Positions 33,347 through 64,000 of a DNA stretch of 64,000 bases are shown here, piece after piece. The notes below the pieces were generated by a model, which made no database searches, had not been told where the DNA came from, and saw only the letters and a list, made by a program, of their open reading frames with translations. Source of the DNA: Streptomyces inhibens (GTDB lineage Bacteria; Actinomycetota; Actinomycetes; Streptomycetales; Streptomycetaceae). The translations under genes and the position numbers were made by a program. The DNA is taken from the NCBI RefSeq assembly GCF_003389455.1, contig NZ_QUAC01000209.1:1-64000 (forward strand), read 5' to 3'. Within the stretch, counting starts at the first letter, position 1, and every line of letters starts with the position of its first letter.

Positions 33347-33380
33347 GCCACTCCCCCATGTCATCGAGAGGTGGTGCCGA

Positions 33381-34292: not shown

Positions 34293-35179
34293 GCCGGTCC
34301 GCCCGTCGGCGCCCCCGTCATCGCCGCCCCTGGGGCTCGTACGCCGTGGTCGTCGCCGGGGCCGTCCTCACCCTCGTCCCGTTCCTCGACATGCTGCTGA
34401 CCTCGTTCAAGGGGCCCGGCGAATACGGAAAACTCCCCTACCGCTTCCTCCCCCAGGCCTTCGACCTTTCCAACTACCGCGCCGCGATGGAGCAGCTGAA
34501 TCTGCCCCTGCTTTTCCGCAACAGCGTCATCGCCACCGCCGTGATCACCGGATCCATTCTGGTGACCTCCGCGCTCGCCGGATACGCGCTGGCCAAGCTG
34601 CACTTCCCCGGCCGGGAGGTGATCTTTCGCCTGGTCCTTTCCACGATGATGTTCCCGCCGTTTCTTTTCTTCATCCCGCACTTTCTGATCCTGGTGCACT
34701 GGCCCGGCGCCGGCGGCAACGACCTGCTCGGCCGCGGCGGGGCGGGCCTCACCGTGAGCCTTGCCGCGCTGGTCATGCCGTTCCTCGTCTCCGGTTTCGG
34801 GATCTTTCTGATGCGGCAATTCATGATCTCCATCCCGGACGAACTGCTGGAGGCGGCCCGTATCGACGGCGCCGGCGAATTCGCCCTCTGGTGGCGCATC
34901 GTGCTGCCCCAGACCAAACCGGTGGCGGTCACCCTCGCGCTGCTCACCTTCGTCAACGCCTGGAACGAATACATCTGGGCGCTGCTGATCTCCACCGCCA
35001 ATCCGCGGCTCATGACGCTGCCGGTGGGCATCCAGATGCTGCAGAGCTATCTCGACCCCGACCGTATGGTCCCGGTCATGATGGCCGGCCTGGTGCTGAG
35101 CATCCTGCCGGTCCTGCTGCTCTTCCTGCTGCTGCAGAAGCACTACCTGCGCGGGGTGATGCTCAGCGGCCTCAAGTGA
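34289..35179 (+). CDS. Sugar ABC transporter permease (MalG-type)
   Basis: A 296-aa permease with six hydrophobic segments and the EAA loop EAARIDGAGEFALWWRIVLP followed by NAWNEYIWALLISTANP, typical of MalG/CUT1 proteins. It starts at a GTG overlapping the previous stop, so production of the two permeases is coupled. A GGGGGC/GCCCCC hairpin follows, separating this operon from mppG 136 nt further on. Confidence 0.9.
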   Translation: MSRSARRRPRHRRPWGSYAVVVAGAVLTLVPFLDMLLTSFKGPGEYGKLPYRFLPQAFDLSNYRAAMEQLNLPLLFRNSVIATAVITGSILVTSALAGYALAKLHFPGREVIFRLVLSTMMFPPFLFFIPHFLILVHWPGAGGNDLLGRGGAGLTVSLAALVMPFLVSGFGIFLMRQFMISIPDELLEAARIDGAGEFALWWRIVLPQTKPVAVTLALLTFVNAWNEYIWALLISTANPRLMTLPVGIQMLQSYLDPDRMVPVMMAGLVLSILPVLLLFLLLQKHYLRGVMLSGLK

Positions 35180-35314: not shown

Positions 35315-36514
35315 ATGGCTTCCGACTCGTCGTCCCCGACGCCGATGCCGGCCGTGTCGTTGATCGTGCCGACGTTCAACGAGGCAGCGAACATTGATGA
35401 GTTGCTCGACGGCGTGTGTGCGGCGATCCCGGCGGGTCTGGAGGTCGAGGTGCTGTTCGTCGACGACTCGACGGATGACACACCGGAGGTCATCGAGAAG
35501 GCGGCCGCGCGCTGTCCGATGCCGGTGTCGGTGCTGCACCGGGAGGTTCCCGAAGGGGGGCTCGGCGGAGCGGTGGTGGCCGGGATCGCCCGTACGAGTG
35601 CGCCGTGGATCATGGTGATGGACGCCGATCTGCAGCATCCCCCGCAGCTGCTGCCGCAGTTGATCGAGGCCGGTGAGCGCGCGTCGGCCGAGTTGGTGGT
35701 GGCCAGCAGATACGCGGAGGGCGGGAGCCGTGGCGGGCTGGCCGGCGGGTACCGGGTGGCCGTGTCGGGGGCGTCGACCGCGCTGACCAAGTCGCTGTTC
35801 CCCCGGCTGCTGCGCGGGGTCTCCGACCCGATGAGCGGGTGCTTCGCCATCCGGCGGGAGGCGGTCGACCGCGCCGTACAGGAGGGCGAGACCCGGCAGG
35901 AAGGGGGGCTGCGGCCGCTCGGCTACAAGATTCTGCTGGAGCTCGCGGTGCGCTGCCGGCCGCGCGGGGTGGTGGAGGTGCCGTACGAGTTCGGGGAGCG
36001 GTTCGCCGGCGAGTCGAAGTCGACGGTGCGCGAGGGGCTGCGGTTCCTGCGGCATCTGGCGGAGCTGCGGACCAGCGACAAACGGGCCCGGATGGTGGCC
36101 TTCGGGCTGATCGGGGTGTCGGGCTTCGTACCGAATCTGCTGGCGCTGTGGGCGCTGACCGGTGCCACGACCCTGCATTACGCGGTGGCGGAGGTGCTGG
36201 CCAATCAGCTCGGGGTGCTGTGGAACTTCGCGCTGCTGGACTTCCTGGTCTACCGGAGCGGGAAACCGGGGCGCGGGGCCGGCCGGCTGCTGGGGTTCGC
36301 GGCGCTCAGCAACGCGGATCTGCTGGCGCGGATCCCGTTGATGATGCTGTTCGTGGAGCAGGCCGGGATGGGGCCGGTGCCGGCGACCGTGATCAGTCTC
36401 GTGGTGGTGTTCGCGCTGCGGTTCCTGCTGGTCGACACGTTGATCTACCGGCGCAAGGGGGCGGCCGCAAAGCGCGCGGCGGACGCGGCGGTCAGGTCCG
36501 AGGGCGCTGCTTAG
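35315..36514 (+). CDS. mppG: Polyprenyl-phosphate mannose synthase (GT2) fused to GtrA-like domain, MppG
   Basis: A 399-aa protein; the ATG at 35315 has AGGAGG 6 nt upstream. Residues 10-245 are a GT2 dolichol-phosphate-mannose synthase domain: SLIVPTFNEAANIDELLDGV, VLFVDDSTDDTPEVIE, the DAD metal motif in MVMDADLQHPPQ, and the VPYEFGERFAGESKS block. Residues 265-385 are a GtrA-like four-helix membrane domain (FGLIGVSGFVPNLLALW onward). It transfers mannose from GDP-mannose to a polyprenyl phosphate, making the donor for GT-C enzymes. The next two genes are such enzymes. The symbol follows my recollection of the mannopeptimycin cluster order G-H-I-J-A-B-K-L. Confidence 0.85.
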   Translation: MASDSSSPTPMPAVSLIVPTFNEAANIDELLDGVCAAIPAGLEVEVLFVDDSTDDTPEVIEKAAARCPMPVSVLHREVPEGGLGGAVVAGIARTSAPWIMVMDADLQHPPQLLPQLIEAGERASAELVVASRYAEGGSRGGLAGGYRVAVSGASTALTKSLFPRLLRGVSDPMSGCFAIRREAVDRAVQEGETRQEGGLRPLGYKILLELAVRCRPRGVVEVPYEFGERFAGESKSTVREGLRFLRHLAELRTSDKRARMVAFGLIGVSGFVPNLLALWALTGATTLHYAVAEVLANQLGVLWNFALLDFLVYRSGKPGRGAGRLLGFAALSNADLLARIPLMMLFVEQAGMGPVPATVISLVVVFALRFLLVDTLIYRRKGAAAKRAADAAVRSEGAA

Positions 36515-36612
36515 CTGACAAGGCAAACTCGTGGCGGCCCGCCCCTGCCGGACAGCAGACTCCGAGCGATGATCTCGCCGGATTCCACCTGGACGGACAG
36601 AGGCGGAGAAAC

Positions 36613-38112
36613 GTGCTGACAGCTCCCGTTGATGTGGGAACGGATCCGCGTTCGGCGGTACGGCCGGCCCGATGGCCGGCGGCCGTCGTCGCGGGCGCCG
36701 TGACCGTCGTGCTGCTCGCCCTGTCCGGCAGGTATGGCTACAACGTCGACGAGCTGTATTTCCGGCTGCTCGGCGAACACGGCTGGGCCTGGGGCTACAC
36801 CGACCAGCCGCCGCTGGTGCCGGCGCTGGTGCACGCCACCGCCCAGGTCCTCGGCGACTCGGTGTGGGCGATCCGGGTGCCGGCGGCGCTGTGCGCGGGG
36901 GCCGTGGTGCTGCTCGGGGCGCTGATCACCGCCGAACTCGGCGGCACCCGCCGGGCACAGACTCTTTCCGCCCTGGGCCTGGGCAGCTCGTTCCTGGTGC
37001 TCAGCGTCGGCCACATCATGGTGACCACCACCCTGGACATGCTCGCCTGGGCCGCAGTGCTGCTCTTCGTCCTGCGGGCGCTGCTGCGCTCGGAGGGCAA
37101 GTGGTGGCTGTGGGCGGGGGTGGTGCTGGGCCTGGCGCTGTACGCCAAGTACATCGTGGCGCTGCTGCCGGTGGCCCTGCTGGCCGGGCTCGCGCTGGTC
37201 GGACCGCGCAAGGTGTTCCGTGACCGGTGGCTGTACGCGGGGATCGCGCTGGCGCTGGCCATCGGCTCGCCGAACCTGATCTACCAGGCCACCCATGACT
37301 TCCCGCAGCTGCAGATGGCCGATGCGCTGGGCGCCACCGACGGCCCGATGAACCGGGTCATCTTCGTGCCGAGCCTGGTGATCCTGCTCGGTCCGGTGCT
37401 GACCGTGGTGTGGGTGGCGGGGCTGGTGAAGCTGCTGCGTGAGCCGGCATGGCGGCCGGTGCGGGCGCTGGCACCGGCGTTCGTGGTCGGGGTGGCGCTG
37501 ACCCTCTACGGCGGTGGCCGGCCCGACTACGTCGGCGGGTTCCTGATCGGGCTGTTCGCGGCCGGGGCGGTGGCCGCCGACCGGTGGATGGGGCGGCGTA
37601 CGTCCCGGCGGGTGCTGCTGTGCGCCGGACTGGCCGCCAGTGCGGTGCTACAGGTGCTGATGGCGCTGCCGGTGCTGCCGCAGAACTCCCCGTTCGTGCC
37701 GCTGAACAACATCTCCCTGGAGAGCGTCGGCTGGCCGCGGCTGGCCGAGCAGGTGCGCACGGCGTACGAGGCGCTGCCGCGGCAGCAGCGGGAGCGGGCC
37801 GTGGTGCTCGCCGACAACCTCGGGGAGAGCGGCGCGCTGGACCGCTACGGGCACGGGCTGCCCGCGGTGTTCAGCGGCCACAACGAACTGCACAAGTGGG
37901 GCCCGCCGCCGGAGCGCGCCGAGGTGGTGGTCGCGGTGGGCGTGCCCCGGTCCCGGCTGGCCGCGGGGTTCACCTCGTGCACCGTCGTGGGACGGGTCGA
38001 CAACGGCGTCGGCGTCGAGAACGCCGAGCAGGGCAGGCCGATCACGGTGTGCCACGGCCGCAAGGCTTCCTGGGCCCGACTGTGGCCCTCCTACCACTAC
38101 TTGAGCGGCTGA
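36613..38112 (+). CDS. mppH: Polyprenol-dependent mannosyltransferase (GT-C, GT39/ArnT-like), MppH
   Basis: A 499-aa membrane protein from a GTG at 36613 (GGCGGAG upstream). Eleven or so hydrophobic segments; the first extracytoplasmic loop carries the catalytic Asp-Glu of GT-C enzymes in YGYNVDELYFRLLGEHGWAW. A C-terminal soluble region (about 390-499) contains RAVVLADNLGESGALDRYGH and HNELHKWGPPPERAEVVVAV. It transfers mannose from a polyprenyl-phosphate carrier to the peptide on the outer face. The protein is a close tandem paralogue of MppI; mannopeptimycin needs an O-linked dimannose on Tyr and an N-linked mannose. Which one this enzyme adds is not decided here. Confidence 0.85.
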   Translation: MLTAPVDVGTDPRSAVRPARWPAAVVAGAVTVVLLALSGRYGYNVDELYFRLLGEHGWAWGYTDQPPLVPALVHATAQVLGDSVWAIRVPAALCAGAVVLLGALITAELGGTRRAQTLSALGLGSSFLVLSVGHIMVTTTLDMLAWAAVLLFVLRALLRSEGKWWLWAGVVLGLALYAKYIVALLPVALLAGLALVGPRKVFRDRWLYAGIALALAIGSPNLIYQATHDFPQLQMADALGATDGPMNRVIFVPSLVILLGPVLTVVWVAGLVKLLREPAWRPVRALAPAFVVGVALTLYGGGRPDYVGGFLIGLFAAGAVAADRWMGRRTSRRVLLCAGLAASAVLQVLMALPVLPQNSPFVPLNNISLESVGWPRLAEQVRTAYEALPRQQRERAVVLADNLGESGALDRYGHGLPAVFSGHNELHKWGPPPERAEVVVAVGVPRSRLAAGFTSCTVVGRVDNGVGVENAEQGRPITVCHGRKASWARLWPSYHYLSG

Positions 38113-38170
38113 TGTGCCCCTGCACCCCGGGCCGTGTGCGAATCGACAATTCAGCGGGAAGTGAGGCGTG

Positions 38171-39700
38171 ATGACGACATCCCTCGACAGGGATTCCAGG
38201 GCGGCCGCGGCCGAACCGGGGGTGTTCCGCCCGGCGCCGATGGCGTGGCGGCCGGTCGCCGTGGTGGTGGCCGCGCTGGCCGTGCTGCTGTTCGCCTTCG
38301 CCGGCGAATACGGCTACCACGCCGATGAGTTGTACTTCCGGCTGCTCGGGGTGCACGGCTTCGCCTGGGGCTATGTGGACCAGCCGCCGCTGCTGCCGCT
38401 GGCCGTACGGACCTCGATGGAGATCTTCGGCGACAGCATGTGGGCGATCCGGGTGCCCGCGGTGCTGTGCGCGGCGGCCGTGACCGCGCTCGGCGCGATG
38501 ATCGCCGCCGAGCTGGGCGGTTCCCGGCGGGCCCAGACGCTGACCGCGTTCGGGGTGGCCACCTCGACGATGGTGCTCAGCTTCGGCCACTGGATCCTCA
38601 CCACCAGCTTCGACACCGTGGCGTGGGCCGCGGTGCTGCTGTTCGTGATGCGGGTGCTGCTGCGCGGCGAGAGCAAGTGGTGGCTGTGGGCCGGGGTGGT
38701 GGTCGGTGTCGCGCTGTACGCCAAGTACATCGTGCTGCTGCTGCCGGTGGCCCTGCTCGTGGGGCTGGCGCTGGTCGGCCCGCGGAAGGTCTTCCGCGAC
38801 GGGAAGCTGTACGCGGGCACGGCGCTGGCGCTGGTCATCGGCTCGCCGAACCTGATCTACCAGGCCACCCATGACTTCCCGCAGCTCCAGATGGCGGAGG
38901 GGCTGGCGGGCACCGACGGCGAGGCGAACCGCGCCATGTTCGCCACGAACCTGATCCTGCTGTTCGGCCCCGCGCTGTTCGTGCTGTGCATGATCGGGCT
39001 GGTCAAGCTGTTCCGGGTGCCGGAGTGGAAGCCCGTACGGACACTGGCCGTCGGCTATCTCGCGGCCACCGCGGCGTCGTACCTCATCGAGGGCGGCCGG
39101 CCGGACTACACCGGCGGACTGCTGATCGCGCTGCTGGCCGCCGGGTGTGTGACGGCCGACCGGTGGGCGGGCGCCCGCAAGCTGCGGCTCTCGGTGCTCG
39201 CGGTCTCGCTGACGCTCAGCACCGCGGTGCAGATGCTGCTGTCTCTGCCGGTGATTCCCAAGACCTCGCTGCGCGACTTCCAGATCGCCAGCATGGCGCT
39301 GGAGACGGTGGGCTGGCCCCGTCTGGTCCAGCAGACCGAGGCGGCCTACCGCGCACTGCCGGCGGCGGACCGCGACCGCGCGATCGTGCTCACCGAGAAC
39401 TTCGGCGAGGCGGGCGCCCTGGACCACTACGGCCACGGGCTGCCGGCGGTGTACAGCGGCCACAACGAGCTGTACCACTGGGGCCCGCCGCCGCAGCGCG
39501 CCGAGGTGGTGGTCGCGGTGGGCATCGACCGGAAACGGCTGTCCGCCGACTTCACCAGCTGCAAGGTCGTCGACCACATCGACAACCGCCTGGGCATCGA
39601 CAACCCGGAACAGGGCGTGCCGATCACGGTGTGCCACGGCCCCAAGAAGCCCTGGTCCGCGCTGTGGCCGGCCTACCGGCACTACAACGCCTATCTGTAG
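38171..39700 (+). CDS. mppI: Polyprenol-dependent mannosyltransferase (GT-C, GT39/ArnT-like), MppI
   Basis: A 509-aa paralogue of MppH, alignable over the full length by eye with long identical stretches such as KWWLWAGVV, LYAKYIV, GSPNLIYQATHDFPQLQMA. Catalytic Asp-Glu in YGYHADELYFRLLGVHGFAW. It begins at the ATG at 38171; a GTG one codon earlier is also possible. C-terminal soluble segment DRDRAIVLTENFGEAGALDH. Same chemistry as MppH with a different acceptor expected. A perfect 15-bp terminator after it separates the mannosylation genes from mppJ. Confidence 0.85.
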   Translation: MTTSLDRDSRAAAAEPGVFRPAPMAWRPVAVVVAALAVLLFAFAGEYGYHADELYFRLLGVHGFAWGYVDQPPLLPLAVRTSMEIFGDSMWAIRVPAVLCAAAVTALGAMIAAELGGSRRAQTLTAFGVATSTMVLSFGHWILTTSFDTVAWAAVLLFVMRVLLRGESKWWLWAGVVVGVALYAKYIVLLLPVALLVGLALVGPRKVFRDGKLYAGTALALVIGSPNLIYQATHDFPQLQMAEGLAGTDGEANRAMFATNLILLFGPALFVLCMIGLVKLFRVPEWKPVRTLAVGYLAATAASYLIEGGRPDYTGGLLIALLAAGCVTADRWAGARKLRLSVLAVSLTLSTAVQMLLSLPVIPKTSLRDFQIASMALETVGWPRLVQQTEAAYRALPAADRDRAIVLTENFGEAGALDHYGHGLPAVYSGHNELYHWGPPPQRAEVVVAVGIDRKRLSADFTSCKVVDHIDNRLGIDNPEQGVPITVCHGPKKPWSALWPAYRHYNAYL

Positions 39701-39723
39701 CGCGCCTCTCGTCCCCCACCCCG

Positions 39724-39756
39724 CGGCCCGGTCCGAAGCACCTTCGGACCGGGCCG
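39724..39756. terminator. Perfect 15-bp hairpin between mppI and mppJ
   Basis: CGGCCCGGTCCGAAG / CTTCGGACCGGGCCG with a 3-nt loop, 24 nt after the mppI stop. It suggests that mppG-H-I and mppJ-A-B-K-L are separate transcripts. Confidence 0.9.
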
Positions 39757-39784
39757 TCTGCCGACCTGCTTCGCTGCACGGTAA

Positions 39785-40903
<1,119 letters not shown>

Positions 40904-40944
40904 CCGCACACGCATATCGATCACGTCGGCTGAGGGGGTTTTCC

Positions 40945-49193
<8,249 letters not shown>

Positions 49194-49197
<4 letters not shown>

Positions 49198-52100
49198 CCA
49201 GCTCTGCAGCGGACCAGCCCGACAACCCGAACACCACCCCGGCGTCACGTGCCGAGCGCACCGCCGCACTGCCGGCCCATGTGCAGGAGCTGCTGCGCGC
49301 CCGGCTCGCCGGCCGGGCCGCCGCGACGGGCGGCGCGGACACCATCCCGCGCATCGGGCACGACGGCCCCGTCGCGCTCTCGCCCGCCCAGGAACGCCTC
49401 TGGTACCTGCATGAGCTCGAACCGGAGAGCAACGAGTACAACACCCTGCGCGTCCTGCGGCTGCGCGGCGACCTCGACCCCGGCGCGCTGTCCGCGGCGC
49501 TGACCGAGATCGTCGCCCGGCACGGCGCGCTCCGCACCACCTTCGGCTCCCGCGAGGGGCATGCCGAGCAGACCGTGCATCCGCCCGTACCGACACCGCT
49601 GCCGCTCGTCGACCTGTCGGCGGCGGACGACGACGAGCGGGACGACGCGCTGCGGACCCTGCTGCAGTACGAGGCCCGGCGCCCCTTCGACCTGCGCCGC
49701 GGCCCGGTGCTGCGGGCGCAGCTGATCCGGCTGGCGGCCGACGACCATGTCCTCGCGCTGGCCCTGCATCACATCGTCACCGACGGCTGGTCGATGGGCG
49801 TGCTCACCGGCGAGCTGACCGCCCACTACGCCGCGACGCTGCGCGGTGCGCCCGCCGTACTCCCCGAACTCCCGGTGAGCTACCTCGATGTCGCCGTCTG
49901 GCAGCGCGAGCAGCTGAGCTCCGCGCGGCTGCGCGAGGGGCTCGACCACTGGCGCCGGGAGCTGGCCGGGCTGGTCCCGCTCGATCTGCCGACGACCTGG
50001 CAGCGGCCGCCGGTCCGCACCAGCGCCGGAGCGCTGCACTCCTTCGAGATCCCCCCGGCCGTCGCCGCACGCCTTCGGGAGCTGGGCCGGGAACAGGGCG
50101 CCACGCTGTTCATGGCGCTGGTCGCCGCGGTCCAGCTGCTGCTGTCGCGCTGGTCGGGGCAGCGGGACATCGCGGTGGGCACTGCCGCGGCCGGGCGCGG
50201 CCGGACCGAGACCGAGAATCTGATCGGCTTCTTCGTCAACAATCTGGTCCTGCGGTCCCGGATCGACGAGGAGCGGTCGTTCGCCGAGCTGCTGCGGGCG
50301 GTGCGCGCGACGGTCCTGGATGCCTTCGCCCACGAGGACGTGCCGTTCCAGCGGGTCGTCGAGGCGCTGCATCCGGAGCGCGACCTCAGCCGGCCGCCGC
50401 TGGCCGAGGTCGCGGTGAATCTGCACAACACCCCGCGGACCGACACGGAGCTGCCCGGGCTGCGGATCGAGGAGATGCCGCCGCCGGTGTTCGCCTCCAG
50501 CATGGACCTCTCGTTCGACTTCACCGAGCGCGACGACCGGCTCGAAGGGCACCTCACCTACAACACCGATCTGTTCGCCGCGGACGCCGCCGCGCGGATG
50601 GCCGCGCAGCTGGTCACCCTGCTTGAGGACCTGACCCGCAGGCCCGCGGTCCCGGTGGCCTCGCTGGCCGTGCTGCCGGCCGCCGAGCACCGTCGGGTGA
50701 CCGAGGAGTGGCCGCACTCCGGGCCCGGCCAGGAGCCGCGTACCGCACCGGAGTTGTTCGCCGCGCAGGTTGCCCGGACCCCTGAGGCGGATGCGCTGGT
50801 CTCCGACGAGGAGACGCTCAGCTACGCCGAGCTGGACGGCCGTACCAACCAGTGGGCGCGGCTGCTGCTGGCCCGGGGTGCCGGGCCGGAGACGCTGGTG
50901 GCGGTGGCGCTGCCCCGCTCCGCGCAGATGGTCACGGCGATCCTGGCGATCCAGAAGACCGGTGCGGCCTATCTGCCGCTGGACCCCAAGAGCCCCGCGG
51001 AACGCAACCGGCTGATGATCGAGGACGCCCGCCCGCTGCTGGTGCTGACCTCGGCCGGGTTCGGCGACGGCGCGGAACTCGGCGCGCCCGCACTGTTCCT
51101 GGACGACCCGGACACCCGCGCCGCCGCAGGCCATCTGTCCTCCGCCCCGCTGGAGGCCGCCGAGCTGCCCGCCCCGCTGCTGCCCGGCCACCCGGCCTAC
51201 GTCATCTACACCTCCGGTTCCACCGGCCGCCCCAAGGGCGTGGTGGTCACCCACACCGGTGTGCACGGCCTCGTGGCGGCGCAGTCGGCGCACTTCCGTA
51301 CCGGGCCCGGCGCGCGGGTGCTGTCGTTCGCCTCGCTCGGCTTCGACGCGGCCTTCTCCGAGCTGGGCATGGCGCTGCTGTCCGGTGGTGCGCTGGTCGT
51401 CGTCGGCCAGGAGCGGATCCTGCCCGGACAGCCGCTGGCCGATGTGCTGGCCGAGCACCGGGTCACCCATGTGACGCTGCCGCCCAGCGCGCTGTCCGCG
51501 CTGACCCCGGGGGCGCTGCCGAAGGACCTCACGCTGGTCGTGGCCGGCGAGGCCTGCCCGCCCGCGGTGGCCCGCACCTGGTCCGCCCATCACCGCATGA
51601 TCAACGCCTATGGCCCCACCGAGTCCTCGGTCTGCGCCAGCATGAGCGCCGCGCTGACCCCGGACACCGTCAGCGGCGACTCGGTCCCCATCGGCCGCCC
51701 GCTCTCCGGCGTCCGGGTCAGCGTTCTGGACGACCGGCTGCGCCCGGTGCCGGCCGGCGTCCCCGGCGAGGTGTATCTCTCCGGCGCCGCGCTGGCCCGC
51801 GGCTACCTCGGGCGGCTCGCGCTGACCGCGGAGCGGTTCGTCGCCGACCCGTACGGTCCGCCGGGAAGCCGGATGTACCGCACCGGCGACCGCGCCCGCT
51901 GGCTGGCCGGCGGCGACCTGGACTATCTGGGCCGCACCGACGACCAGGTCAAACTGCGCGGCTTCCGGATCGAGCTCGGCGAGGTCGAGGCCGTGCTGTC
52001 GCGCCACGACGGGGTCGGCGCGGTGGCCGCCACGGTGCACAAGGACGAGCGGGGCACCCGCCGCCTGGTGGCCTACGTCGTCCCGGCGCGCAAGGACGCG

Positions 52101-55100
52101 GCCGACCCGGCGCGGCTGCGCGAGTTCGCCCGCGAGGTGCTGCCCGAGCACATGGTGCCCTCGGTCTTCGTGCCGCTGGACCGGCTGCCGCTGAACGCCA
52201 ACGGCAAGGTCGACCGGCGGGCGCTGCCCGCACCCGACATCCGGCGCGACGAGGGCAGCGCCCGTATCGCGCCGCGCACCCCGGCGGAGGAGACGCTGGC
52301 GCGCATCTGGTCGGAGGTACTGGGCGTCACGGACATCGGCGTCGAGGACAACTTCTTCGACCTCGGCGGCGACTCCATCCTCAGCCTTCAGGTGGTGGCG
52401 CGGGCCCGGGCCGCCGGACTGCGGCTGACCGCCAAGCAGACCTTCCTGCGGCAGACCATCGCCGATCTCGCCGCCGACGCCGTCGCCGAGACCGACCCCG
52501 CCGCGCACGGTGCGGCAAGCGACGGCCCGGTCACCGGCGAGCTGCCGCTCACCCCCATCCAGCACTGGTTCTTCACCACCCTCGGCGACAGCCTGGAGCA
52601 GTTCAACCAGTCGCTGTATCTGGAGCTGGCCGAGGACCCCGACCTCCCGGCGCTGCGCGCCGCACTGGCCGCGCTGACCGAACAGCACGACGCGTTGCGG
52701 CTGCGCGCCGTATCCGAGGACGGGCAGTGGCGGCTGCACCACGCCCCCGCCGAGACCGGTCAACTCCTCGAACACCTCGATCTGTCCGGCGCCTCGCCCG
52801 ACGAGCAGGACGCCGCGATGGCGGCCGCCATCGACGCGGCGCAGCGGGGCTTCGGGCTGTCCGAGGGGCCGCTGCTGCGGGCCCGGCTGTTCACCCTCGG
52901 CAACGCCCGGCCGCCCCGGCTGTACCTCGTCGCGCACCACCTCGTCATCGACGGCATGTCCTGGCGCATCCTGCTGGCGGACCTGGAGACCGGCTACCGC
53001 CTGGCGGCGGACGGCCGGCCGATCGACCTGGGGCCCCGGACCACCTCGTTCCGCGACTGGTCGCGCCGGCTGTCGCGCCATGTCGCGGACGGCGGCCTGG
53101 ACGCCGAACTGCCGTACTGGAAGGGCGTACAGGACGCGGCGCGCGAGGCCGCCCCGCTCCCCGTCGACACCGGCCGGCTCGCCGACCGCCAGGGTGCGCA
53201 GGAGGAGCCCGGCGAGAACACCGCCGGATCGGCCCGCACCGTCTCCGCAGCGCTGTCCGCCGCGGGCACCGAGGCGCTGCTGCGGCAGGTGCCCGAGGCC
53301 TACCGCACCCAGATCAACGACGTCCTGCTCAGCGCGCTGGGCCGGGTGCTGACCGACTGGGCAGGCGGCGAGCGGGTGCTGATCGCCCTGGAGGGGCACG
53401 GCCGCGAGGAGCTCTTCGACGAGGTGGACCTCACCCGCACCGTCGGCTGGTTCACCACCCTCTTCCCGGTCGCCCTGCGGGTGCCGGCCGACCGGGACTG
53501 GGGAACGGTCCTCAAGAGCGTCAAGGAGCAGCTGCGGGCGGTACCCCACAACGGACTCGGCCATGGCGCGCTGCGTCATCTGGCAGGGCCGGACTCCCCG
53601 CTGGAGGACGGCCCGGAGCCCGAGGTCAGCTTCAACTACCTCGGCCAGCTGGACGTGTCCGCCGACCGCACCGGCCTTGCCCGCGCCATGCTCACCAGCG
53701 AGGGCGCCGAGCGGGCCGCCGGCCAGCGCCGTGCGCAGCTGCTGGAGATCAACGGCGTGGTCACCGGCGGCCGGCTGGAGTTCCACTGGACGTACTCGGT
53801 GAACCGGCACCGCGCAGAGACCGTCGAACGGCTCGCCGCGGGCTTCATGGCCGCGCTGGAAGCGATCGTGGCGCACTGCGCCGCCCCCGGTTCCGGCGGC
53901 GCCACCCCGTCCGACTTCCCGCTGGCCGCCCTCGACCAGGCCACCGTCGACAAGATCGCCGGCGACGGCCGCACGGTCGAGGACATCTACCCGCTCACCG
54001 CGATGCAGAGCGGCATGCTCTTCCATGCGCTGAGCGAGTCCGGACGCGACCCGTACACCGGGCACTTCGGCGTCCGGGTGGACGGCATCACCGACCCGGG
54101 GGCGCTGGCCGCGGCCTGGCAGCAGGTCGTCGACCGGACCCCCGCCCTGCGCACCGCCATCGTCTGGCAGGACGTCGCGGAACCCCTTCAGGTGGTGCAC
54201 GCGGCCGCCCGTGTGCCGGTCACCCATCACGACCTGCGCTCCCTGACCGAGCAGGACCGGCAGGCCGCCCTGGACCGGCTGTGGGAGCGGCGCGAGGAGA
54301 CCGTCATCGATCTCGCCGTCGCGCCCGCGCTGCGGCTGACCCTCGCCCGGCTCACCGACAGCGCCGTCCAGATGTTCTGGACCTCGCACCACATCCTGAT
54401 GGACGGCTGGAGCTTCGCCGGGCTGCTGTCGGAGGTGTGCGCCCAGTACACCGCGCTGACCGGCGGCCCCCGTGCGGCGGTCCCTGCCCGCCGCCCGTAC
54501 CGCGACTATGTCGGCTGGCTGGCCGAACAGGACCGGCCGGCCGCCGAGGCGCACTGGCGCTCGGTGGTCGACGGGTTCACGGTGCCGACGCCGCTGCCCT
54601 ACGACCGGCAGCCGGTGAAGGCACACGGCACCCGGTCCTCGCGTGAGGTGCGGCTGCAACTGTCCGCCGAGCGCTCCGAACGGCTGTCCGAGGCCGCCCG
54701 GTCGGCGCGGCTGACCGTCAACACGCTGGTCCAGGGCGCCTGGGCGATCCTGCTGGCGCGCTACGGCGGGGTGCGCGACGTCTGCTTCGGCACCACCGTC
54801 TCCGGCCGTCCCGCCACCCTGCCCGGCGCCGAGTCGATGGCCGGGCTGTTCATCAACACCGTTCCGGTACGGGCAACCATCGACGGCGCCGGTGCCGGCA
54901 CCGCCACCGTCGAGTGGCTGCGGCAGCTGCAGAGCGAGCAGCTCGACTCCCGGCAGCACGAGCATGTCTCACTGGCGCAGATCCAGCGCTGGAGCGGTAT
55001 ACCGGCCGGCACCAACCTCTTCGACAGCATCGTCGTCTTCGAGAACTACCCCTACGACAGCGATGCGGCCGCCAAGTACGGGCTGACCCTCGGCACGTTC

Positions 55101-58100
55101 CAGGGCGACGAGGTCACCAACTACGCCCTAACCCTGACCGCGTACGTGGCCGACGAGCTCCATCTCAACCTCGGCTACGACCCGGATCTGTTCGACGAGG
55201 CGACCGTCGAGCGGATGGCCGGGCATCTGGCGACGCTGCTCGACGCCGTCGCCGCCGCCCCGCACACCCCGGTGGACGACCTCCCGCTGATCGATGCGGC
55301 CGAACACCACCGGCTCCTCACCGAGTGGAACGACACCGCCGCCGGTTTCCCGCCGCCGCGGCCGGTCCATGAGCTCTTCGCCGAGCGGGCCGCCCGTACC
55401 CCGGACGCGGTGGCGGTCAGCGACGCCACCCGGCAGCTGACCTTCGCCGAGCTGGAGACCCGCGCCAACCAACTCGCGCACCACCTGGCCGGTCTGGGCG
55501 TGGCGCCCGGCACGCTGGTCGGGGTGTGCGCCGACCGCGGGGTGGACGCCGTGGTGGCGCTGCTGGGCGTGCTGCGGGCCGGCGGTGCCTTCGTACCGCT
55601 GGACCCCGCCTATCCGGCGGAGCGGCTCCAGGTCATGCTGGAGGACGCCGCGGTACCGGTCGTGGTGACCGAGGAGCGGCTGCTGGACCGGACCGCCGGG
55701 CACGACGCGACGACGGTGTGCCTGGACCGCGATCTGCCGCTGCTGGAGGAGCTCCCGGCCCGCCCGCCGTACACCGCCGTGACGCCGGACGACCTGGCGT
55801 ATGTCGTCTATACGTCGGGCACCACCGGGCGCCCCAAGGGCGTGATGGTCGAGCACCGGCACGTCCACCACATGGTGCACGCCTGGGACCGGCGCTACGG
55901 GCTCGCCGCACTGCAACCGCGCGCGCTGTCCGTCTCCAGCATCTCCGTCGACCTGTTCTTCAGCGACTTCCTGCTCTCCGCCCTCTTCGGCGGCACGATG
56001 GTGATCTGTCCGCAGGACGCCGTCGCCGACCAGGTGGCGCTGACCGATCTGCTGCTCAAGAGCCGGGCCCAGCTGATGGTGACGGTGCCGACGCTGGCCC
56101 GCGCGGTGGTCGCCGAGCTCGCCTGGCGCGGTGTGACGCCGGAGGCGCTGCGGGTGCTGATGGTGGGCTCCGAGGGCTGGCCGGCCGATGCCGCGGCCGA
56201 GATCCTGGCCGGTCTCGCGCCGGGCACGGTGCTGGTCAACGCGTACGGATCGACCGAGACCACGGTCGACTCCACGGTCTTCCAGCTCGGCCGCGACCCG
56301 CTGGGCGACGCCGCTTTCGTACCGGTCGGCAGGCCGCTCGCCAACACCCGGATCTATGTGCTGGACGAGCGGATGCGCCCGGTGCCCACCGGCGTCGTCG
56401 GCGAGTGCTACATCGGCGGCGACGGGGTGTCGCGCGGCTATCTGGGCCGCCCGGAGCTGACCGCCGAGCGTTTCCTCGACGACCCGTTCGCGCCGGAGCC
56501 GGGCGCCCGGATGTACCGGACCGGTGACCTCGCGCGCTGGCGGGCCGACGGCAACCTCGAATGCCTCGGCCGGGTCGACGACCAGGTCAAGATCCGCGGC
56601 TTCCGGGTGGAACTCGGCGAGGTGGAGGCGGCGTTGGCCCGCCACCCGGCGATCGACTCGGCGGCCGCCGCGATCCGCAAGGACGACGGCGGGCCGGCCC
56701 GTCTGGTGGGCTATGTCGTGCCCGCCGCCGGCCACACCCCCGACCTGGCCGAGCTACGGGCCTTCGCCGCCGAACGGCTGCCGGCGCCCGCCGTCCCCAC
56801 CGCGTACATGGTGCTGGACGCGCTGCCGATGACGCCGAGCGGCACCGTCTCCCGGCGTGCGCTGCCGGCCCCGGCCGGAACGCAGGACGCCGCCCGGCCC
56901 TACACCGCACCGGGTAACGCCACCGAGCTGCTGCTCTGCGGTATCTGGCAGGAGGTCCTGGGCGTCGAACGGGTCGGCGTGCACGACAACTTCTTCGACC
57001 TGGGCGGCGACTCCATCCTCAGCATCCGGGTCAGCTCCCGGATCCGGGCCACGCTGGGCGTCGCTCCGTCGCCCCGACAGCTCTTCGACACCCCGACGGT
57101 GGCCGGTCTCGCCGCCACCCTCGGCCGGGACGACCCCTCGGCGGCCGCCGACGTCCCCCTGGAGCCGGCCGACCGCGGCGCACCGCTGCCGCTCTCCTCC
57201 GCCCAGCAACGCCAGTGGTTCCTGCACAACTTCGACCCGGACAGCAGCGAGTACCACATCGTCACCGGGCTCCGGCTCGACGGTGATCTGGACGTCGCGG
57301 CGCTGCGAGGGGCCCTGAACGGGCTCGTCGCCCGGCACGAGGCGCTGCGTACCACCTACGCGGCCACCGGCGAGGGCGCCGAGCAGATCGTGCACCCCGC
57401 GGGCGAGGTGGTCTGCGCGCGTACGGATCTGTCCGAGGTGCCCGAGGACCAGCGCGAGGACACCTTGCGCGGGCACATCGAACGCGCCGCCGCCCGGCCG
57501 TTCAGCCTCACCGAGGGCCCGGTCCTGCGCGCCGAACTTTTCCGGCTCGGCGCCCGCGACCATCTGCTGCTGCTCGTCATCCACCACATCGCCACCGACG
57601 GTGTCTCGATGCAGGTGCTCACCGAGGAGCTCGGCGTCCACTACGCCGCGGCGCTCGACGGCACACCGCCCGCCCTGCCGGCGCTGCCGGTCTCCTACGC
57701 CGACTACGCGGCCTGGCAGCGCCGGATGCTGTCCGGCCCGGCGCTGGACGACCATCTCGCCTACTGGCAGGAGCGGCTGGCCGGTGTCCGGCCGCTGGAG
57801 CTGCCCACCGACCGGCCCCGGCCGGCGGTCCGCAGCTCCGCGGGCCGGATGCTGCTGATCGAGATCGAGCCGCGGGTGGCCGCGGGCCTCAAGGAGCTGG
57901 CCCGCCGCCATGACGCCACCCTGTTCATGGCGCTCACCGCGGCGGTCCAGCTGCTGCTGGCCCGCTACACCGGACAGCCGGACATCGTCGTGGGCACCCC
58001 GGCCGCCGGCCGGGGCCGCCAGGAACTCGAAGGGCTCGTCGGGCTGTTCGTCAACACGGTGGCACTGCGGTCCACCGTCGACGAGAGCCGGACCTTCGGC

Positions 58101-60185
58101 GCCTTCCTCGGTGCGGTGCGCGACACCGTCCTCGAAGCGTTCGTGCACGAGGACGTGCCGTTCGACCGGCTGGTCGAGGTGCTGCGACCGCGCCGCGACC
58201 CCAGCCGTAACGCACTGGTGGAGGTGTTCGTCGGACTGGAGACGGACCGGTCGGCGCCGCCTGCGCTGCCCGGACTGACGGTGACCGAGGTCCCGTTCGT
58301 CAGCGGCGAGGTGAGCCATGACCTCAGCTTCGACTTCGTCGACCGGCCCGACGGCCTGAAGGCGGCGATCGGCTACAGCACCGCGCTGTTCGACGACGGC
58401 ACCATCGAGCGGATGGCCGGCCAGTTCCAGGCGCTGCTCGCCGCGGTCCTCAAGGACCATCGCGCGCTCGCCGACATCGCACCCGCGGACGAGGACGAGG
58501 TACGGCGGCTCGCGGCACTGCGGCAGGCCGCGCCCTCGGAGCCCGACGCGTCGGAAGCCGACGGCGCGCCGGCCGCCTACCGCGCGCCCGGGACCGCTGC
58601 CGAGCGGGCCCTGGCGGAGATCTGGGCCGCCGTGCTGGGGGTGGTGCGGGTCGGGACCGACGACAACTTCTTCCAGCTGGGCGGCGACTCCCTGCTCAGC
58701 ATCCAGGCGGTGCAGCGGATGCGGCAGGCCGGGCTCGCGGTGACCACCAAGGATCTGTTCGTCCACCAGAGCATCGCCCCGCTGGCGGCCCTCGCCGAGG
58801 AACGAGCGGCGGACCGGCCCCAGGCGCCCCAGGCGCCGCACGACGACGCCGGGACGGCGGGCGAGATACCGCTCACCCCCATCCAGCGCGACTACTTCGA
58901 GGCCGGGCCGCTCGCCCCGCACCACTTCACCCAGTCGGTGTTCCTCGAACTGCACGCCGATCTCGACGAGCCCGCGCTGCGGCACGCCCTGGCCGCGCTG
59001 ATCGGCCACCACGACGCCCTGCGGACCCGCTTCGTACACGAGGACGGCGACTGGCGGCAGTACGCCACCCCGCCGGAGCCGGTGGACATCCTGCGCCGGC
59101 ACGACCTGTCCGGGGTGCCCAAGGATCAACGTGCCGCCGCCATGGACGAGTTGGCGGCCTCGGCCGACGCCGGGCTCGATCTGGCGGCCGGTCCGCCGGC
59201 CGCGGCGCTGCTGTTCGTCTTCGGGCCCGGGGAGCGGCCGGCGCTGTTCGTGACCGCGCACCATCTCGTCGTCGACGGCGTCTCCTGGCGGATCCTGCTG
59301 GAGGACCTGGAAGCCGGCTACGTCCAGGCCCGCGACGGGAAGCCGGTGTCCCTGGGCGCCAAGAGCACCTCGTTCGGGCAGTGGGCGCACCGGCTCGCCG
59401 GGCACATCGCCGACGGCGGTCTCGCCGAGCAGGCCGCCTACTGGCAGGCGCTGCCCGACGGCACCGAGGTCCCGCACGACGGCTCCGGTCCCGCGGTGGT
59501 GGAGTCGGTGCAGACCGTCACGGTGGAGCTGCCACAGGACACCAGCGAGGTGCTGCTGCGCCGGTCCGCCGGGGTGTTCCGGACCCGCTTCCACGAGGTG
59601 CTGTTCGCCGCGCTCGCCGGCACCCTGGCCCGGTGGACGGGCGAACGCCAGGTCGTGTTCGACACCGAGGGCCACGGCCGGGAGGACCTCTTCGACGACG
59701 TCGATCTCTCCCGGACCGTCGGCTGGTTCACCACCGAGTACCCCGTCGCCCTTGAGGTGGCCGGCGACCGGGAAGACTGGCCCGCGCTCATCAGGTCGGT
59801 ACGCGGACAGCTGCGGTCGCTGCCCGGCAACGGCTTCGGCTACGGCGCGCTGCGGCATCTGAGCCCGGCCGGCACCCCGGGTGCCGCACTCGCCGAACGG
59901 GCCCCGGCCCAGGTGGTGTTCAACTACCACGGCCAGGCCGACGATGCGCAGCGCGCGGCGGAGAGCGACCTCTACCACGCGTTCGGCGACCCGATCGGCC
60001 GCGAGCAGCGGCCCGACGAGCTGACCGGGCACCCGGTGGAGGTGGTGGGCGCCGTGCACTCCGGGCGGCTCCGCTTCACCTGGTACTTCTCGCGCAATGT
60101 TCATCACAGGGCCACCATCGACAAGGTGGCCGAGGACTTCGCCGACGCGCTGCGCACCATCGCCCGGCACATCACGGAGCGGTGA
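49194..60185 (+). CDS. mppB: Nonribosomal peptide synthetase MppB (C-A-T-E-C-A-T-C-T-E)
   Basis: A 3663-aa NRPS. Module 4: C (55-490, HHIVTDG 192), A (510-1010), T (Ser1061), E (1115-1560, PLTPIQHWFF, HHLVIDG 1248). Module 5: C (1595-2035, HHILMDG 1732), A (2050-2560, YTSGTTGRPKG 2206), T (about 2607). Module 6: C (2660-3090, HHIATDG 2797), T (Ser3166), E (3225-3660, HHLVVDG 3356). Module 6 has no A domain: a linker of about 40 residues joins C6 to the usual A-T linker (AYRAPGTAAERALAEIW). No thioesterase follows. A4 reads D-A-S-T-V-A-A-V-C, a Tyr-type code, and is followed by E, giving D-Tyr. A5 (D-L-S-T-M-G-A-V-D) probably activates hydroxyenduracididine and serves both T5 and T6. Confidence 0.93.
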
Positions 60186-60188
60186 GCC

Positions 60189-61508
60189 ATGGACCACGAC
60201 AGCCTGCACAGCACCCTGACCGAGCTGGCCGCCCGCCATCGGGTGCCCGGCGCCCAGCTCGCCGTCATCCACGAGGGGGAACGGTTCCTGGTGCACACCG
60301 GAGTGTGTGACACCGGCTCCGGAGCCCCCGTGGAGCGGCACACCGCCTTCCCCGTCGGCTCGCTGACCAAGCCGTTCACCGCCGCCCTCGCGATGATCCT
60401 GGTGGCCGACGGGGACGTGGACCTGGACGAGCCGCTGAGCGGACAGCTGCCGGAGTTCGGGGCGGGCGAACTCGTCACCCTCCGGCAGTTGCTCAGCCAC
60501 ACCTCGGGCCTGCCCTCCGACGTGCCGGAGGGCAGCGGCGAGGCCGGCGGCGGCGACCGTGCCCGCTGGGTGGCCCGGCACTGCCGTACGGCGGATCTCA
60601 CGCATCCGCCCGGGACGGTCTTCTCGTACTCCAACATCGGCTATGTCGTCGTGGGCCGGCTCATCGAGGCGGTCACCGGCATGAGCTGGCAGGAGGCGAT
60701 CAGCGCGATCCTGCTCGAACCCCTGGGCACCCGGCCCGCGTTCGTCGTCGGAGCCCGCGCCAGCCGCCCGGTGGCCACCGGGCACGCCGTCCAGGCGGTC
60801 CGCGACCGGGTGGTGCCGATACCGGACCAGGATCTGCCCGAGGTCGAGATGCCCAACGGGGCGCTGGCGCTGAGCGCCGAGGACCTGGTCGGCTTCGCCC
60901 GGCTGTACTTCGCAGGCTGCCCGGACCCTCAGCCGCTGGACCGGGCGACCGCCGACGACATGTGCTTCGACCAGCTGTCCTCGATCGCCATCGGCCCGTA
61001 CGGCATGGCCGACGGCTGGGGCCTGGGCTGGGCGAGGTTCGACGACGGTGCGGCGGACGTCTACGGCCACAACGGCACCGGCGACGGCACCTCCTGCCAT
61101 CTGCGCTTCGACCCGGCCAACGGCTCCGCGGTCGCGCTGACCGCCAACGCCAACACCGGCGCCCAGCTGTGGGACGCCCTGGTGCCCCGGCTGCGGGCCA
61201 TGGGCCTGCCGGTCGGCGACCGCCCGGCGCCCGAGCCGCCCGCCACCCCGCCGCCGGTCCCGGACGACTGTCCGGGCCGCTACACCAACGGCGACACCGA
61301 GTTCGTGGTGCAGCCCGGCGCCGACGGCGGGCTGCTGCTGAGCTTCGGCGGGGCGCCGCACTCGGAGCTGCTGTGCTCCCCCGATCTGCGCTTCACCATG
61401 CGGGAGCTGGGCAGCGGTGCCCGGTCCCCGGGCCGCTTCGTCACCGATCCCGCCACCGGGCGGATCGGCTACCTCCAGATCACCGGGCGCCTCGCCCCCC
61501 GACGCTGA
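60189..61508 (+). CDS. mppK: Penicillin-binding-protein-type peptide cyclase, MppK
   Basis: A 439-aa serine hydrolase of the beta-lactamase/PBP4* family, starting 3 nt after the mppB stop. Catalytic motifs are intact: S58-x-x-K61 (VGSLTKPF), Y147-x-N149 (SYSNIGY) and the third motif HNG at 294 (YGHNGTGDG). No signal peptide, so it is cytosolic. A C-terminal beta-rich domain spans about 350-439. Stand-alone PBP-type thioesterases such as SurE cyclise NRPS peptides ending in a D-residue; mppB ends in an E domain and lacks a thioesterase. MppK is therefore the likely macrocyclase. Confidence 0.88.
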   Translation: MDHDSLHSTLTELAARHRVPGAQLAVIHEGERFLVHTGVCDTGSGAPVERHTAFPVGSLTKPFTAALAMILVADGDVDLDEPLSGQLPEFGAGELVTLRQLLSHTSGLPSDVPEGSGEAGGGDRARWVARHCRTADLTHPPGTVFSYSNIGYVVVGRLIEAVTGMSWQEAISAILLEPLGTRPAFVVGARASRPVATGHAVQAVRDRVVPIPDQDLPEVEMPNGALALSAEDLVGFARLYFAGCPDPQPLDRATADDMCFDQLSSIAIGPYGMADGWGLGWARFDDGAADVYGHNGTGDGTSCHLRFDPANGSAVALTANANTGAQLWDALVPRLRAMGLPVGDRPAPEPPATPPPVPDDCPGRYTNGDTEFVVQPGADGGLLLSFGGAPHSELLCSPDLRFTMRELGSGARSPGRFVTDPATGRIGYLQITGRLAPRR

Positions 61509-61526
61509 GACAGGGACGGCCCCGGG

Positions 61527-62894
61527 ATGACCACGGCCCCCACGGACGCGGAGACGGTACGCGGCAGCGCGGCCGTCCCGCTGTCCCGCAACCGCGACTA
61601 CAACGTCCTGTGGTCCAGCCAGCTGATGTCCGAACTCGCCATGGAGATGGCCGCGGTGGCCGTGCCGCTGCTGATCCTCGCCCGGCACGGCTCACCGCTC
61701 CAGCTGGGTCTGGCCTCCTCCGCGATGGCGGCCGCGCACATGATCTCGGTGGTGCCGGCCGGGGTGATCGCGGACCGCTGGGACCGCCGCCGGCTGATGC
61801 TGGGCTGCCAGGTGTTGCGGGTGCTGGGCATGGTGAGCCTGGCCGGCGCGCTGCTGCTGGACCGGTACGCGTTCTGGCATGTGCTGCTGGTCGTGGTGCT
61901 GGAGGGCTTCCTCGGCTCGGTCTTCGACCCCGCGGAACATGCCGCGCTGCCCCAGGTGGTGCCGCCCGACCAGCTCTCCACAGCGGTGGCCAGAAACGCG
62001 GCGCGCCCCTACATAGCCACCCTCGTGGGGCCGGGCGTCGCCGGGTTCCTCTTCAGCGCCCTGCCGCTCGGGCCGTTCGTGACCAATGCGCTGATGTTCG
62101 CGCTGTCGTCCGTGGCGCTGTGCTTTCTCCGGCTGCCCAGGGGGCGGTCCGCCGCGGTCCGGTCCGGCGACGGGTCCGATGGTGCCGGAGCGGACCACGA
62201 CGGACGGGACGACGACGGACGGGACGACGACGCACGGGACGACGGGAGCGACGACGCTGCGCCGCGGACCGGGGGCACCGGCCAGGACTTCGCTGCCGGC
62301 TTCCGCTGGGTGCTGGGGCAGCCGGTGATCCGCACCACGATGGCCTGGATGCTGATCACGAACCTGGCCTTCAGCGCGCTGCTGATCGTGCTGCTCGCGC
62401 TCTCGGGCGAGGACAAGGTCGGCGCCGGTGAGCTGGGCCTGACGATGGCCTGCTTCGGCGCCGGCGGACTGCTCGGCGGGCTCTTCGCGGCCCGGATGCA
62501 CGCCGCCGCCCGGCCACCGGTGATCATCCTCGGCTTCACCTGGACCGCCGCCCTGGGCGCCGTCCTGATGGCGGCGGTGCCCACCGGTCTGCCCCAGGGA
62601 GCGCTGCTCGGCCTGATGGCGCTCTTCGCCCCACTCGCCAACACCACCGTGCTGACCTACCAGTTGACCGTCACCCCGGACGAGCTGCGGGGCCGGATGA
62701 GCGGCGTCGCCGGGTTCTGCTCGGGAGGCGCCGGTGTCCTGGGGCCCGCGCTCGGCGGTGCGCTGACGGGGGCGGCCGGCGGGGGCGTGACCCCCGTACT
62801 CATCTGCGCCGGCTGCCTGGTCCTGGTCGCTGTCGCGGCCACCGCGAGCCCCACGCTGCGGCGGTTTCCCGACATCGCGGACCGGAATCCCTGA
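61527..62894 (+). CDS. mppL: Major facilitator exporter, MppL
   Basis: A 455-aa MFS protein with about twelve hydrophobic segments. First segments: YNVLWSSQLMSELAMEMAAV, then the loop PAGVIADRWDRRRLML (motif A). The central cytoplasmic loop (about 205-260) is strongly acidic and contains 15-bp tandem repeats coding DGRDD units. This family of drug exporters resembles the EntS/MFS_3 type. Likely exports the finished or partly modified peptide so that the membrane mannosyltransferases can act outside, or provides self-resistance. Nineteen nt after mppK, so in the same operon. Confidence 0.85.
   Translation: MTTAPTDAETVRGSAAVPLSRNRDYNVLWSSQLMSELAMEMAAVAVPLLILARHGSPLQLGLASSAMAAAHMISVVPAGVIADRWDRRRLMLGCQVLRVLGMVSLAGALLLDRYAFWHVLLVVVLEGFLGSVFDPAEHAALPQVVPPDQLSTAVARNAARPYIATLVGPGVAGFLFSALPLGPFVTNALMFALSSVALCFLRLPRGRSAAVRSGDGSDGAGADHDGRDDDGRDDDARDDGSDDAAPRTGGTGQDFAAGFRWVLGQPVIRTTMAWMLITNLAFSALLIVLLALSGEDKVGAGELGLTMACFGAGGLLGGLFAARMHAAARPPVIILGFTWTAALGAVLMAAVPTGLPQGALLGLMALFAPLANTTVLTYQLTVTPDELRGRMSGVAGFCSGGAGVLGPALGGALTGAAGGGVTPVLICAGCLVLVAVAATASPTLRRFPDIADRNP
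62199..62243. repeat. In-frame 15-bp tandem repeat in the exporter gene
   Basis: GACGGACGGGACGAC three times (the last with one change), coding an acidic DGRDD-type stretch in the cytoplasmic loop of the transporter. In-frame length change is expected to be tolerated. Confidence 0.85.
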
Positions 62895-63066
62895 CCGCTG
62901 CGGCACCGCCCGGGACCGGCCAACTTAACTCCACAGTCAAGGACATGGAACGCCCGGACAAATCCGACGATGCTCGTGGATCACCAACTGGAGATTTCCG
63001 CGCGTCCTCGGTGCGGGGGCTGGTGCCTGTCCGGCGGTGTGCCGCGCGGTCGGCGAAAGGTCCCGT

Positions 63067-64000
63067 ATGCAGACCCCCCAGACACCGAGCCAGCCGCAGT
63101 CCCGGCCACGGCCAAAGCCGCAGCCGCAGTCACAGTCACAGTCACAGCCGAATCTGAGGTCCCTGACCGGATTACGGTTCCTGGGCCTCTTACCCGTCTT
63201 CCTCACCCATGCCGCGTTCGAGGGCGTCTTCAGCGACGCGAACGTGAGCTGGGGCTTCCTCGACGCGATGGGGAACACCGGCTATGCCGCGGTCTCGTTC
63301 TTCTTCGTGCTGAGCGGCTTTGTGATCACCTGGTCCTACCGCTCCCGCGACACCACCCGCACGTTCTGGCGCCGACGCGCCTTCCGGGTCTTCCCCAACC
63401 ATCTCGTGGCCTATGTGTTCGCGCTGGCCCTGATGCTCGCGGCGGGCACCGCCTTCGACGCCCCCGCCCTGATCTCCCAGATGTTCCTGGTGCACGCATG
63501 GGTGCCCGACCCGCTGTTCATCGACACCGGCAACACGGTGACCTGGTCCCTCGGGGTCGATGTGGTGTTCTACGGGCTCTTCCCGGTGCTGCTCGTGCTG
63601 GTGAACAAGATCAAGCCAACCCGTCTGTGGTACTGGGCCGGTGCTGCCGTGCTCATGGTGATCGCCATCCCCACAGTGGCGCTGGCCCTGCTCCCGGACA
63701 CCCCGGCCATGTCGGTGGGCGATGTCTCCCGCAGCCAGTACTGGTTCACCTACTTCTTCCCGCTCTCCCGCACCGTGGAGTGCGTGCTGGGCATGCTGAT
63801 GGCGCGGATCGTGCTGTCCGGCAAGTGGATAGGCCTGCGGGTACTGCCTGCCGCGGCCCTGGTGGTCGTGGCGTATGTCGTCGCACAGCAACTCCCCTTC
63901 CTCTACCGGCTCAGCGCGGTGCTGATCGTGCCGATCGCGCTGCTCACCGCCTCCGTGGCGGTGGCGGACGCCGAGGGCCGGGGCACCCCGCTCGGCGGCA
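63067..64000 (+). CDS. Membrane O-acyltransferase (acyltransferase 3), probable isovaleryltransferase (3' end outside window)
   Basis: Open from the ATG at 63067 (GAAAGG 5 nt upstream) to the right edge, 311 codons. A Gln/Pro/Ser-rich start (residues 1-30) precedes the acyltransferase 3 fold: LRSLTGLRFLGLLPVFLTHA with the conserved His, SFFFVLSGFVITWSYRSRD, then RRRAFRVFPNHLVAYVF, and at least eight hydrophobic segments in the visible part. In the published mannopeptimycin pathway a membrane acyltransferase adds isovaleryl to the outer mannose; position and family fit. I am not sure of its letter. Two TTA leucine codons (63172-63174, 63190-63192) near the start make translation dependent on the rare bldA tRNA. 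Confidence 0.85.
   Translation, partial: MQTPQTPSQPQSRPRPKPQPQSQSQSQPNLRSLTGLRFLGLLPVFLTHAAFEGVFSDANVSWGFLDAMGNTGYAAVSFFFVLSGFVITWSYRSRDTTRTFWRRRAFRVFPNHLVAYVFALALMLAAGTAFDAPALISQMFLVHAWVPDPLFIDTGNTVTWSLGVDVVFYGLFPVLLVLVNKIKPTRLWYWAGAAVLMVIAIPTVALALLPDTPAMSVGDVSRSQYWFTYFFPLSRTVECVLGMLMARIVLSGKWIGLRVLPAAALVVVAYVVAQQLPFLYRLSAVLIVPIALLTASVAVADAEGRGTPLGG

Follow-up and report, generated by a model that had tools for sequence, protein, structure and literature searches.

A very probably complete mannopeptimycin biosynthetic cluster in Streptomyces inhibens

The question raised by this locus is whether Streptomyces inhibens carries the entire mannopeptimycin pathway and whether its product would be the known one. 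Mannopeptimycin is a sugar-decorated antibiotic against Gram-positive bacteria, and its cluster was reportedly described by Magarvey et al. in 2006 from Streptomyces hygroscopicus; we take BGC0000388 to be the reference record. The window, i.e., the whole stretch of DNA that was analyzed, spans 64,000 nucleotides and corresponds to bases 1-64000 of a 133,975-base contig, with the same numbering, in a genome of 9.48 Mb in 486 contigs. A first, sequence-only reading had recognized a mannopeptimycin-type cluster here, and this is borne out by an MppJ 98.2% identical to the crystallized protein 4kib and by matching genes and domains. With a probability of about 0.96, the DNA points to a complete mannopeptimycin biosynthetic cluster. 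Chance is excluded because MppJ is 98% identical and the same gene order recurs in three other genomes. The cluster is an already known one, present here as another copy in another strain, and it is near-identical to the published genes where these were compared (MppJ and MppR).

Extent and gene content of the locus

Translations were inspected across 27-91 kb of the contig. This gave 22 plus-strand genes with no internal stop, from mppG at 35315 to the end of a GDSL-lipase gene at 78799, covering ~43.5 kb. The locus had been described as nearly complete from mppG to the acyltransferase; mppG is indeed the left end, but 64000 is the window edge and the cluster runs on to ~78.8 kb. Inside the window lie mppG, mppH, mppI, mppJ, mppA, mppB, mppK, mppL and the start of mppM. 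The polyprenyl-phosphate mannose (PPM) synthase, two GT-C mannosyltransferases, MppJ, PBP-type hydrolase, MFS exporter and acyltransferase named in the sequence-only reading were all found.

The sugar and acyl gene set, as recognized by Pfam, comprises the PPM synthase, the two GT-C mannosyltransferases and two acyltransferases. The left border is mppG (35315-36514, ATG at 35315), which combines a GT2 domain with a GtrA/DPMS membrane domain (PF00535, PF04138) and is the left-most gene kept in three relatives, with 82-86% identity. It is followed by mppH (36613-38112, GTG start) and mppI (38168-39700, 84-88% in the three relatives), both coding for GT-C proteins of the PMT_2 kind (PF13231); the available text of one paper treats MppH/I as putative polyprenyl-phosphomannose-dependent transferases (PMC4635501). 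Downstream of the peptide genes, mppL (61527-62894; PF07690, PF05977) encodes an MFS exporter, and a 2026 paper, in the portion available, describes export of the aglycone as experimentally linked to MppL (PMC13285481). The acyltransferase gene mppM (Acyl_transf_3, PF01757), whose start is uncertain, is present as had been claimed and begins at ~63037, but it opens a tandem pair and extends over the window edge to end at 64287; the second member, mppN, occupies 64302-65672.

The enduracididine genes had been expected to the right of the window, and mppO (65779-66810), mppP (~66980-68140), mppQ (68140-69387) and mppR (69342-70289) lie directly beyond its edge. They are followed by genes for a regulator-like HTH protein (mppS, 70246-71253), an MbtH-like protein (71315-71530), a response regulator (71924-72592), a sensor kinase (72695-73909), a lipoprotein-like protein so called by eye (73998-74396), an ABC ATPase (74399-75319), an ABC membrane protein (75324-76955) and the GDSL protein (77345-78799); gene starts beyond the window edge are not all certain. 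A single gene at 73934-75319 was rejected in favor of the separate lipoprotein and ABC ATPase genes. The letters S-Z are given here by order in the S. lydicus 103 list, as far as that list is available (PMC5357945).

TTA codons occur at 63172 and 63190 (mppM, near the start), 69307 (mppQ) and 70477 (mppS). Translation of TTA codons may need the rare leucyl-tRNA bldA, and these three genes may be dependent on it.

Precursor genes, assembly line and peptide release

The C-methyltransferase MppJ (mppJ, 39890-40903), of the beta-methylphenylalanine pathway, is identical to crystallized MppJ (4kib) at 331 of 337 residues (98.2%, six differences), far above the 60% that the sequence-only reading had named as its threshold. 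The enzyme acts on phenylpyruvate and has an iron centre, and His243, Asp244 and His295, presumably the iron ligands, stand at exactly the positions that had been given for them. Similarly, MppR matches crystallized MppR (4jm3) at 291 of 298 aligned residues (97.7%, seven differences), an alignment that excludes the last 17 residues of MppR here. Residue-by-residue comparison with crystallized proteins covered MppJ and MppR, both of which we take to come from S. hygroscopicus on the basis of an abstract and a reference title. The six and seven differences, respectively, indicate a strain different from the S. hygroscopicus reference, to which the locus is otherwise alike also in the printed domain string. 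For the remaining enduracididine genes, MppP matches the MppP structure 5dj1 over residues 15-381 with 610 bits, MppQ passes the NCBIfam equivalog TIGR04461 endura_MppQ (680 bits against a cut-off of 540) and MppO matches arginine beta-hydroxylases with a best E of 2e-78, so that mppP, mppQ, mppR and the hydroxylase gene mppO were all found within 65779-70289.

The peptide would be built by two NRPSs. For mppA (40945-49197) the ATG at 40945 was judged likelier, the ORF extending back to 40810; its product contains three A, three T and two C domains in Pfam, in the order A-T-C-A-T-C-A-T (modules 1-3). The product of mppB (49194-60185) contains two A, three T and five C-type domains, two of the latter being of the epimerization type (TIGR01720 twice, taken as the mark of E domains, and HHxxxDGxSWRIL motifs), in the order C-A-T-E-C-A-T-C-T-E (modules 4-6) and with an E domain at the C-terminus. 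Domain order was read from motif positions. Pfam and motif scans agree with the six modules, five A domains and absence of a thioesterase previously proposed; no thioesterase family was detected in MppA or MppB at E 1e-5. The string of MppB also stands in the available part of a 2022 review, where it is given for the mannopeptimycin NRPS (PMC8949500).

Module 6 of MppB lacks an A domain, since the ~70 residues from its C domain to its T motif are too few for one. No stand-alone A domain was found nearby, as five of the 64 AMP-binding matches in the genome are on this contig and all five are in MppA or MppB; A domains elsewhere in the genome could still load module 6 in trans. In the same part of the 2022 review, the second A domain of the mannopeptimycin NRPS is said to feed both T domains after it (PMC8949500).

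The pockets of the five A domains were read at what we take to be the GrsA positions: DVWNVAMVH (A1), DVAYLIAVA (A2), DGWTGAILS (A3), DASTVAAVC (A4) and DLSTLVAVD (A5). That of A4 is, we assume, plainly a Tyr code; for A1, A2, A3 and A5 we know of no textbook code for Ser, Gly, Phe or Arg-like residues that fits. In the hexapeptide we take Gly, beta-methylphenylalanine (bMePhe) and Tyr to follow Ser in this order. In published syntheses, as far as their text is available, L-beta-hydroxyenduracididine is followed by mannosylated D-beta-hydroxyenduracididine and this in turn by Ser (PMC5238550). The placing of the E domains in modules 4 and 6, taken with the printed residue order, fits assembly as Ser, Gly, bMePhe, D-Tyr, L-beta-hydroxyenduracididine and D-beta-hydroxyenduracididine.

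With regard to release, mppK (60189-61508) starts three bases after the end of mppB and encodes the PBP-type hydrolase, to which the sequence-only reading had given no role. Among the best 60 of 117 matches to solved structures at E 0.001, the nearest were 6ksu (5.2e-73, spanning MppK residues 3-436), whose record title reads alpha/beta hydrolase and which we take to be SurE, and Ulm16 8fek (5.7e-60, in three stretches); the third-best match was at 2.4e-30, with carboxypeptidases and beta-lactamases next. MppK keeps the S58xxK61, Y147xN149 and H294xG296 motifs of these cyclases. As it is nearest to SurE/Ulm16 and is named a SurE cyclase in the accessible text of a 2020 review (PMC7459860), MppK is most likely a trans-acting cyclase that would release and cyclize the hexapeptide, as has been suggested in print before. 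The terminal E domain of MppB is consistent with cyclization by MppK of a D-ended peptidyl thioester; in contrast to SurE and Ulm16, the expected substrate would be a hexapeptide ending in D-beta-hydroxyenduracididine. The biffamycin A cluster, as far as its description is available, is similar in its polyprenyl-phosphate mannose route, in a PBP-type cyclase and in an MFS exporter akin to MppL (49% according to that paper), but it makes a tetrapeptide and its cyclase is embedded in the NRPS (PMC13285481).

A further beta-lactamase-fold protein (PF00144) is encoded on the minus strand at 10496-11683 of the window, outside the cluster.

Relatives of the cluster and its surroundings

A search with MppJ in 392 genomes of the genus, the source genome included, gave 29 genomes with a match at E 1e-60 or better, and an MppJ of at least 90% identity was present in only four of the 392 sampled genomes, again including its own. 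The three others (G137, G311 and G175) have all 22 genes, likewise arranged, at 69-95% identity. Across the four Streptomyces copies, identity is 90-92% for MppJ, 75-82% for the MFS exporter, 73-78% for MppM and 69-86% for MppN. The A1, A3 and A5 pockets are the same as in the three relatives; A2 has A here and G in all three, and L here where one relative has M, while A4 has V here and I in all three. Going by the residues exchanged, these A2 and A4 differences are conservative.

The relatives were compared over 120-kb stretches, so that the right border could be judged as well. In a tblastn search at 1e-10, the 18 proteins on the left flank of mppG (contig 14-35 kb, from crude ORF calls) had no match in these stretches, nor had the nearest 11 of 25 proteins on the right flank, up to 90.9 kb. 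Further out, nine of the 25 right-flank proteins matched the relatives: eight in G137, in reverse order, of which four aligned over 96-100% of their length at 77-86% and four matched more weakly (32-56%), and the ninth at 32-35% in G311 and G175. No flanking DNA common to G137, G311 and G175 was found by blastn. Because the genes are kept in order while the flanks differ, the cluster is a unit of ~43.5 kb set in different surroundings. Two ABC permease genes (PF00528) at 33147-35179 of the window adjoin mppG on its left on the same strand; they are probably outside the cluster, because they had no match near the cluster in the three relatives.

One of these copies has been described before. 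We take G137 to be S. lydicus 103, whose region 7791219-7850756 was published as a mannopeptimycin cluster, and the mpp genes of G137 lie inside it; protein identity to the locus here is 72-95%, in other surroundings. The gene list, in the part of the paper available, comprises G, H, I, A, B, K, L, M, N, Q and S-Z, with MppS as a regulator, MppT as hypothetical, MppU and MppV as a two-component pair, MppW as a lipoprotein, MppX as an ABC transporter and MppY and MppZ as conserved hypothetical proteins (PMC5357945). It fits the genes found here, and J, O, P and R, missing from that list, are nevertheless present in G137. In the same text MppL appears as an ABC transporter and MppK as an alpha/beta hydrolase, whereas here they read as an MFS and a PBP-type protein, respectively (PMC5357945).

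Named genomes with an MppJ of 90-93% were S. lydicus NRRL ISP-5461, Streptomyces sp. MspMP-M5, Streptomyces sp. CB02959 and S. inusitatus, from a set of 64 loci found in which records very near the source genome may be absent. Their 21-kb loci share the order G, H, I, J, A, and all four carry MppR at 86-89%; CB02959 and G175 are probably the same genome. The mppR frame of S. inusitatus has two in-frame stops near the first codons and one ~20 residues before the end, and its start and end may be placed differently.

More distant loci were noticed alongside. On contig C249 of the source genome (~28.2-39.1 kb; L132:8181-19094), a second MppJ-like methyltransferase, 54% identical, comes after the genes for a PKS of 1854 residues (KS-AT-DH-KR-T) and an NRPS of 1068 residues (C-A-T), and an MbtH-like stretch lies in between; this hybrid cluster probably draws on a beta-methylated aromatic residue. 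Jomthonic acids are built on beta-methylphenylalanine, according to the available text (PMC6117699). Lentzea pudingi has, within 21 kb, a distant mannopeptimycin-like cluster of different gene order, with relatives of MppJ (59%), MppK (46%), MppL (55%), MppP (64%), MppQ (58%) and MppR (66%, in a frame with one TGA), an NRPS sequence adjoining the MppK relative and one GT-C protein that matches both MppH (40%) and MppI (36%) in the same frame; mannopeptimycin is listed for the strain in the accessible part of a 2022 Lentzea survey (PMC9120177), and its product may differ. Streptomyces sp. MJM8645 has a 21-kb NRPS locus with relatives of MppJ, MppK, MppO, the HTH protein, MbtH, the two-component pair and the ABC transporter. 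Within those 21 kb neither MppP nor MppQ was matched, and MppR had no match anywhere in the genome, so that by its gene content this appears to be a similar frame without enduracididine genes.

The predicted pathway and its product

The gene set, the open frames, the domain order and the near-identity of MppJ and MppR can be read from the DNA itself. We infer, or take from print, the reaction of each enzyme, the double loading by A5, the role of MppK, the attachment of sugars and acyl groups and the making of the product by this strain. MppP, MppR and MppQ would convert arginine to enduracididine, which MppO would hydroxylate, and MppJ would make the precursor of beta-methylphenylalanine. MppA would link Ser, Gly and beta-methylphenylalanine; MppB would add Tyr, epimerized to D, and then L-beta-hydroxyenduracididine, while A5, its second A domain, probably also loads the A-less module 6, whose residue the terminal E domain would convert to D. 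MppK would then release the D-ended hexapeptide from the last T domain and close the ring. After export of the aglycone by MppL, MppG would supply polyprenyl-phosphate mannose, MppH and MppI would attach mannose at the membrane, and MppM and MppN would add isovaleryl groups.

The lower conservation of MppM, MppN and the MFS exporter than of MppJ among the four Streptomyces copies, together with A2 (A/G, L/M) and A4 (V/I) pockets unlike those of the three relatives, could indicate a cluster of the same logic whose product differs in one residue or in the acyl or sugar pattern. We consider this very unlikely: MppJ and MppR are ~98% identical to the crystallized proteins from the published pathway, the genes and the domain layout agree with it, the exchanges in the pockets are conservative, and divergence from the relatives has no bearing on the much closer reference cluster. 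That the strain makes an undescribed mannopeptimycin congener, changed in acylation, mannosylation or one residue, could be proposed because the exporter and the acyltransferases are among the less conserved components of the cluster and the pockets of two A domains depart from those of the relatives, but on this sequence evidence we regard it as improbable. A silent or decayed copy without product, for which the TTA codons in mppS, mppQ and near the mppM start might speak, is scarcely credible with 22 of 22 frames open, without internal stop, and the catalytic motifs of MppJ and MppK present.

Our preferred reading is still that of a complete mannopeptimycin cluster. Cyclization by MppK and loading of the A-less module 6 by A5, both probable steps here, have already been proposed in print, in the available portions of two reviews (PMC7459860, PMC8949500). 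The strain would be one more likely mannopeptimycin source with a sequenced genome, and having the cluster undivided on a single contig helps to compare the copies.
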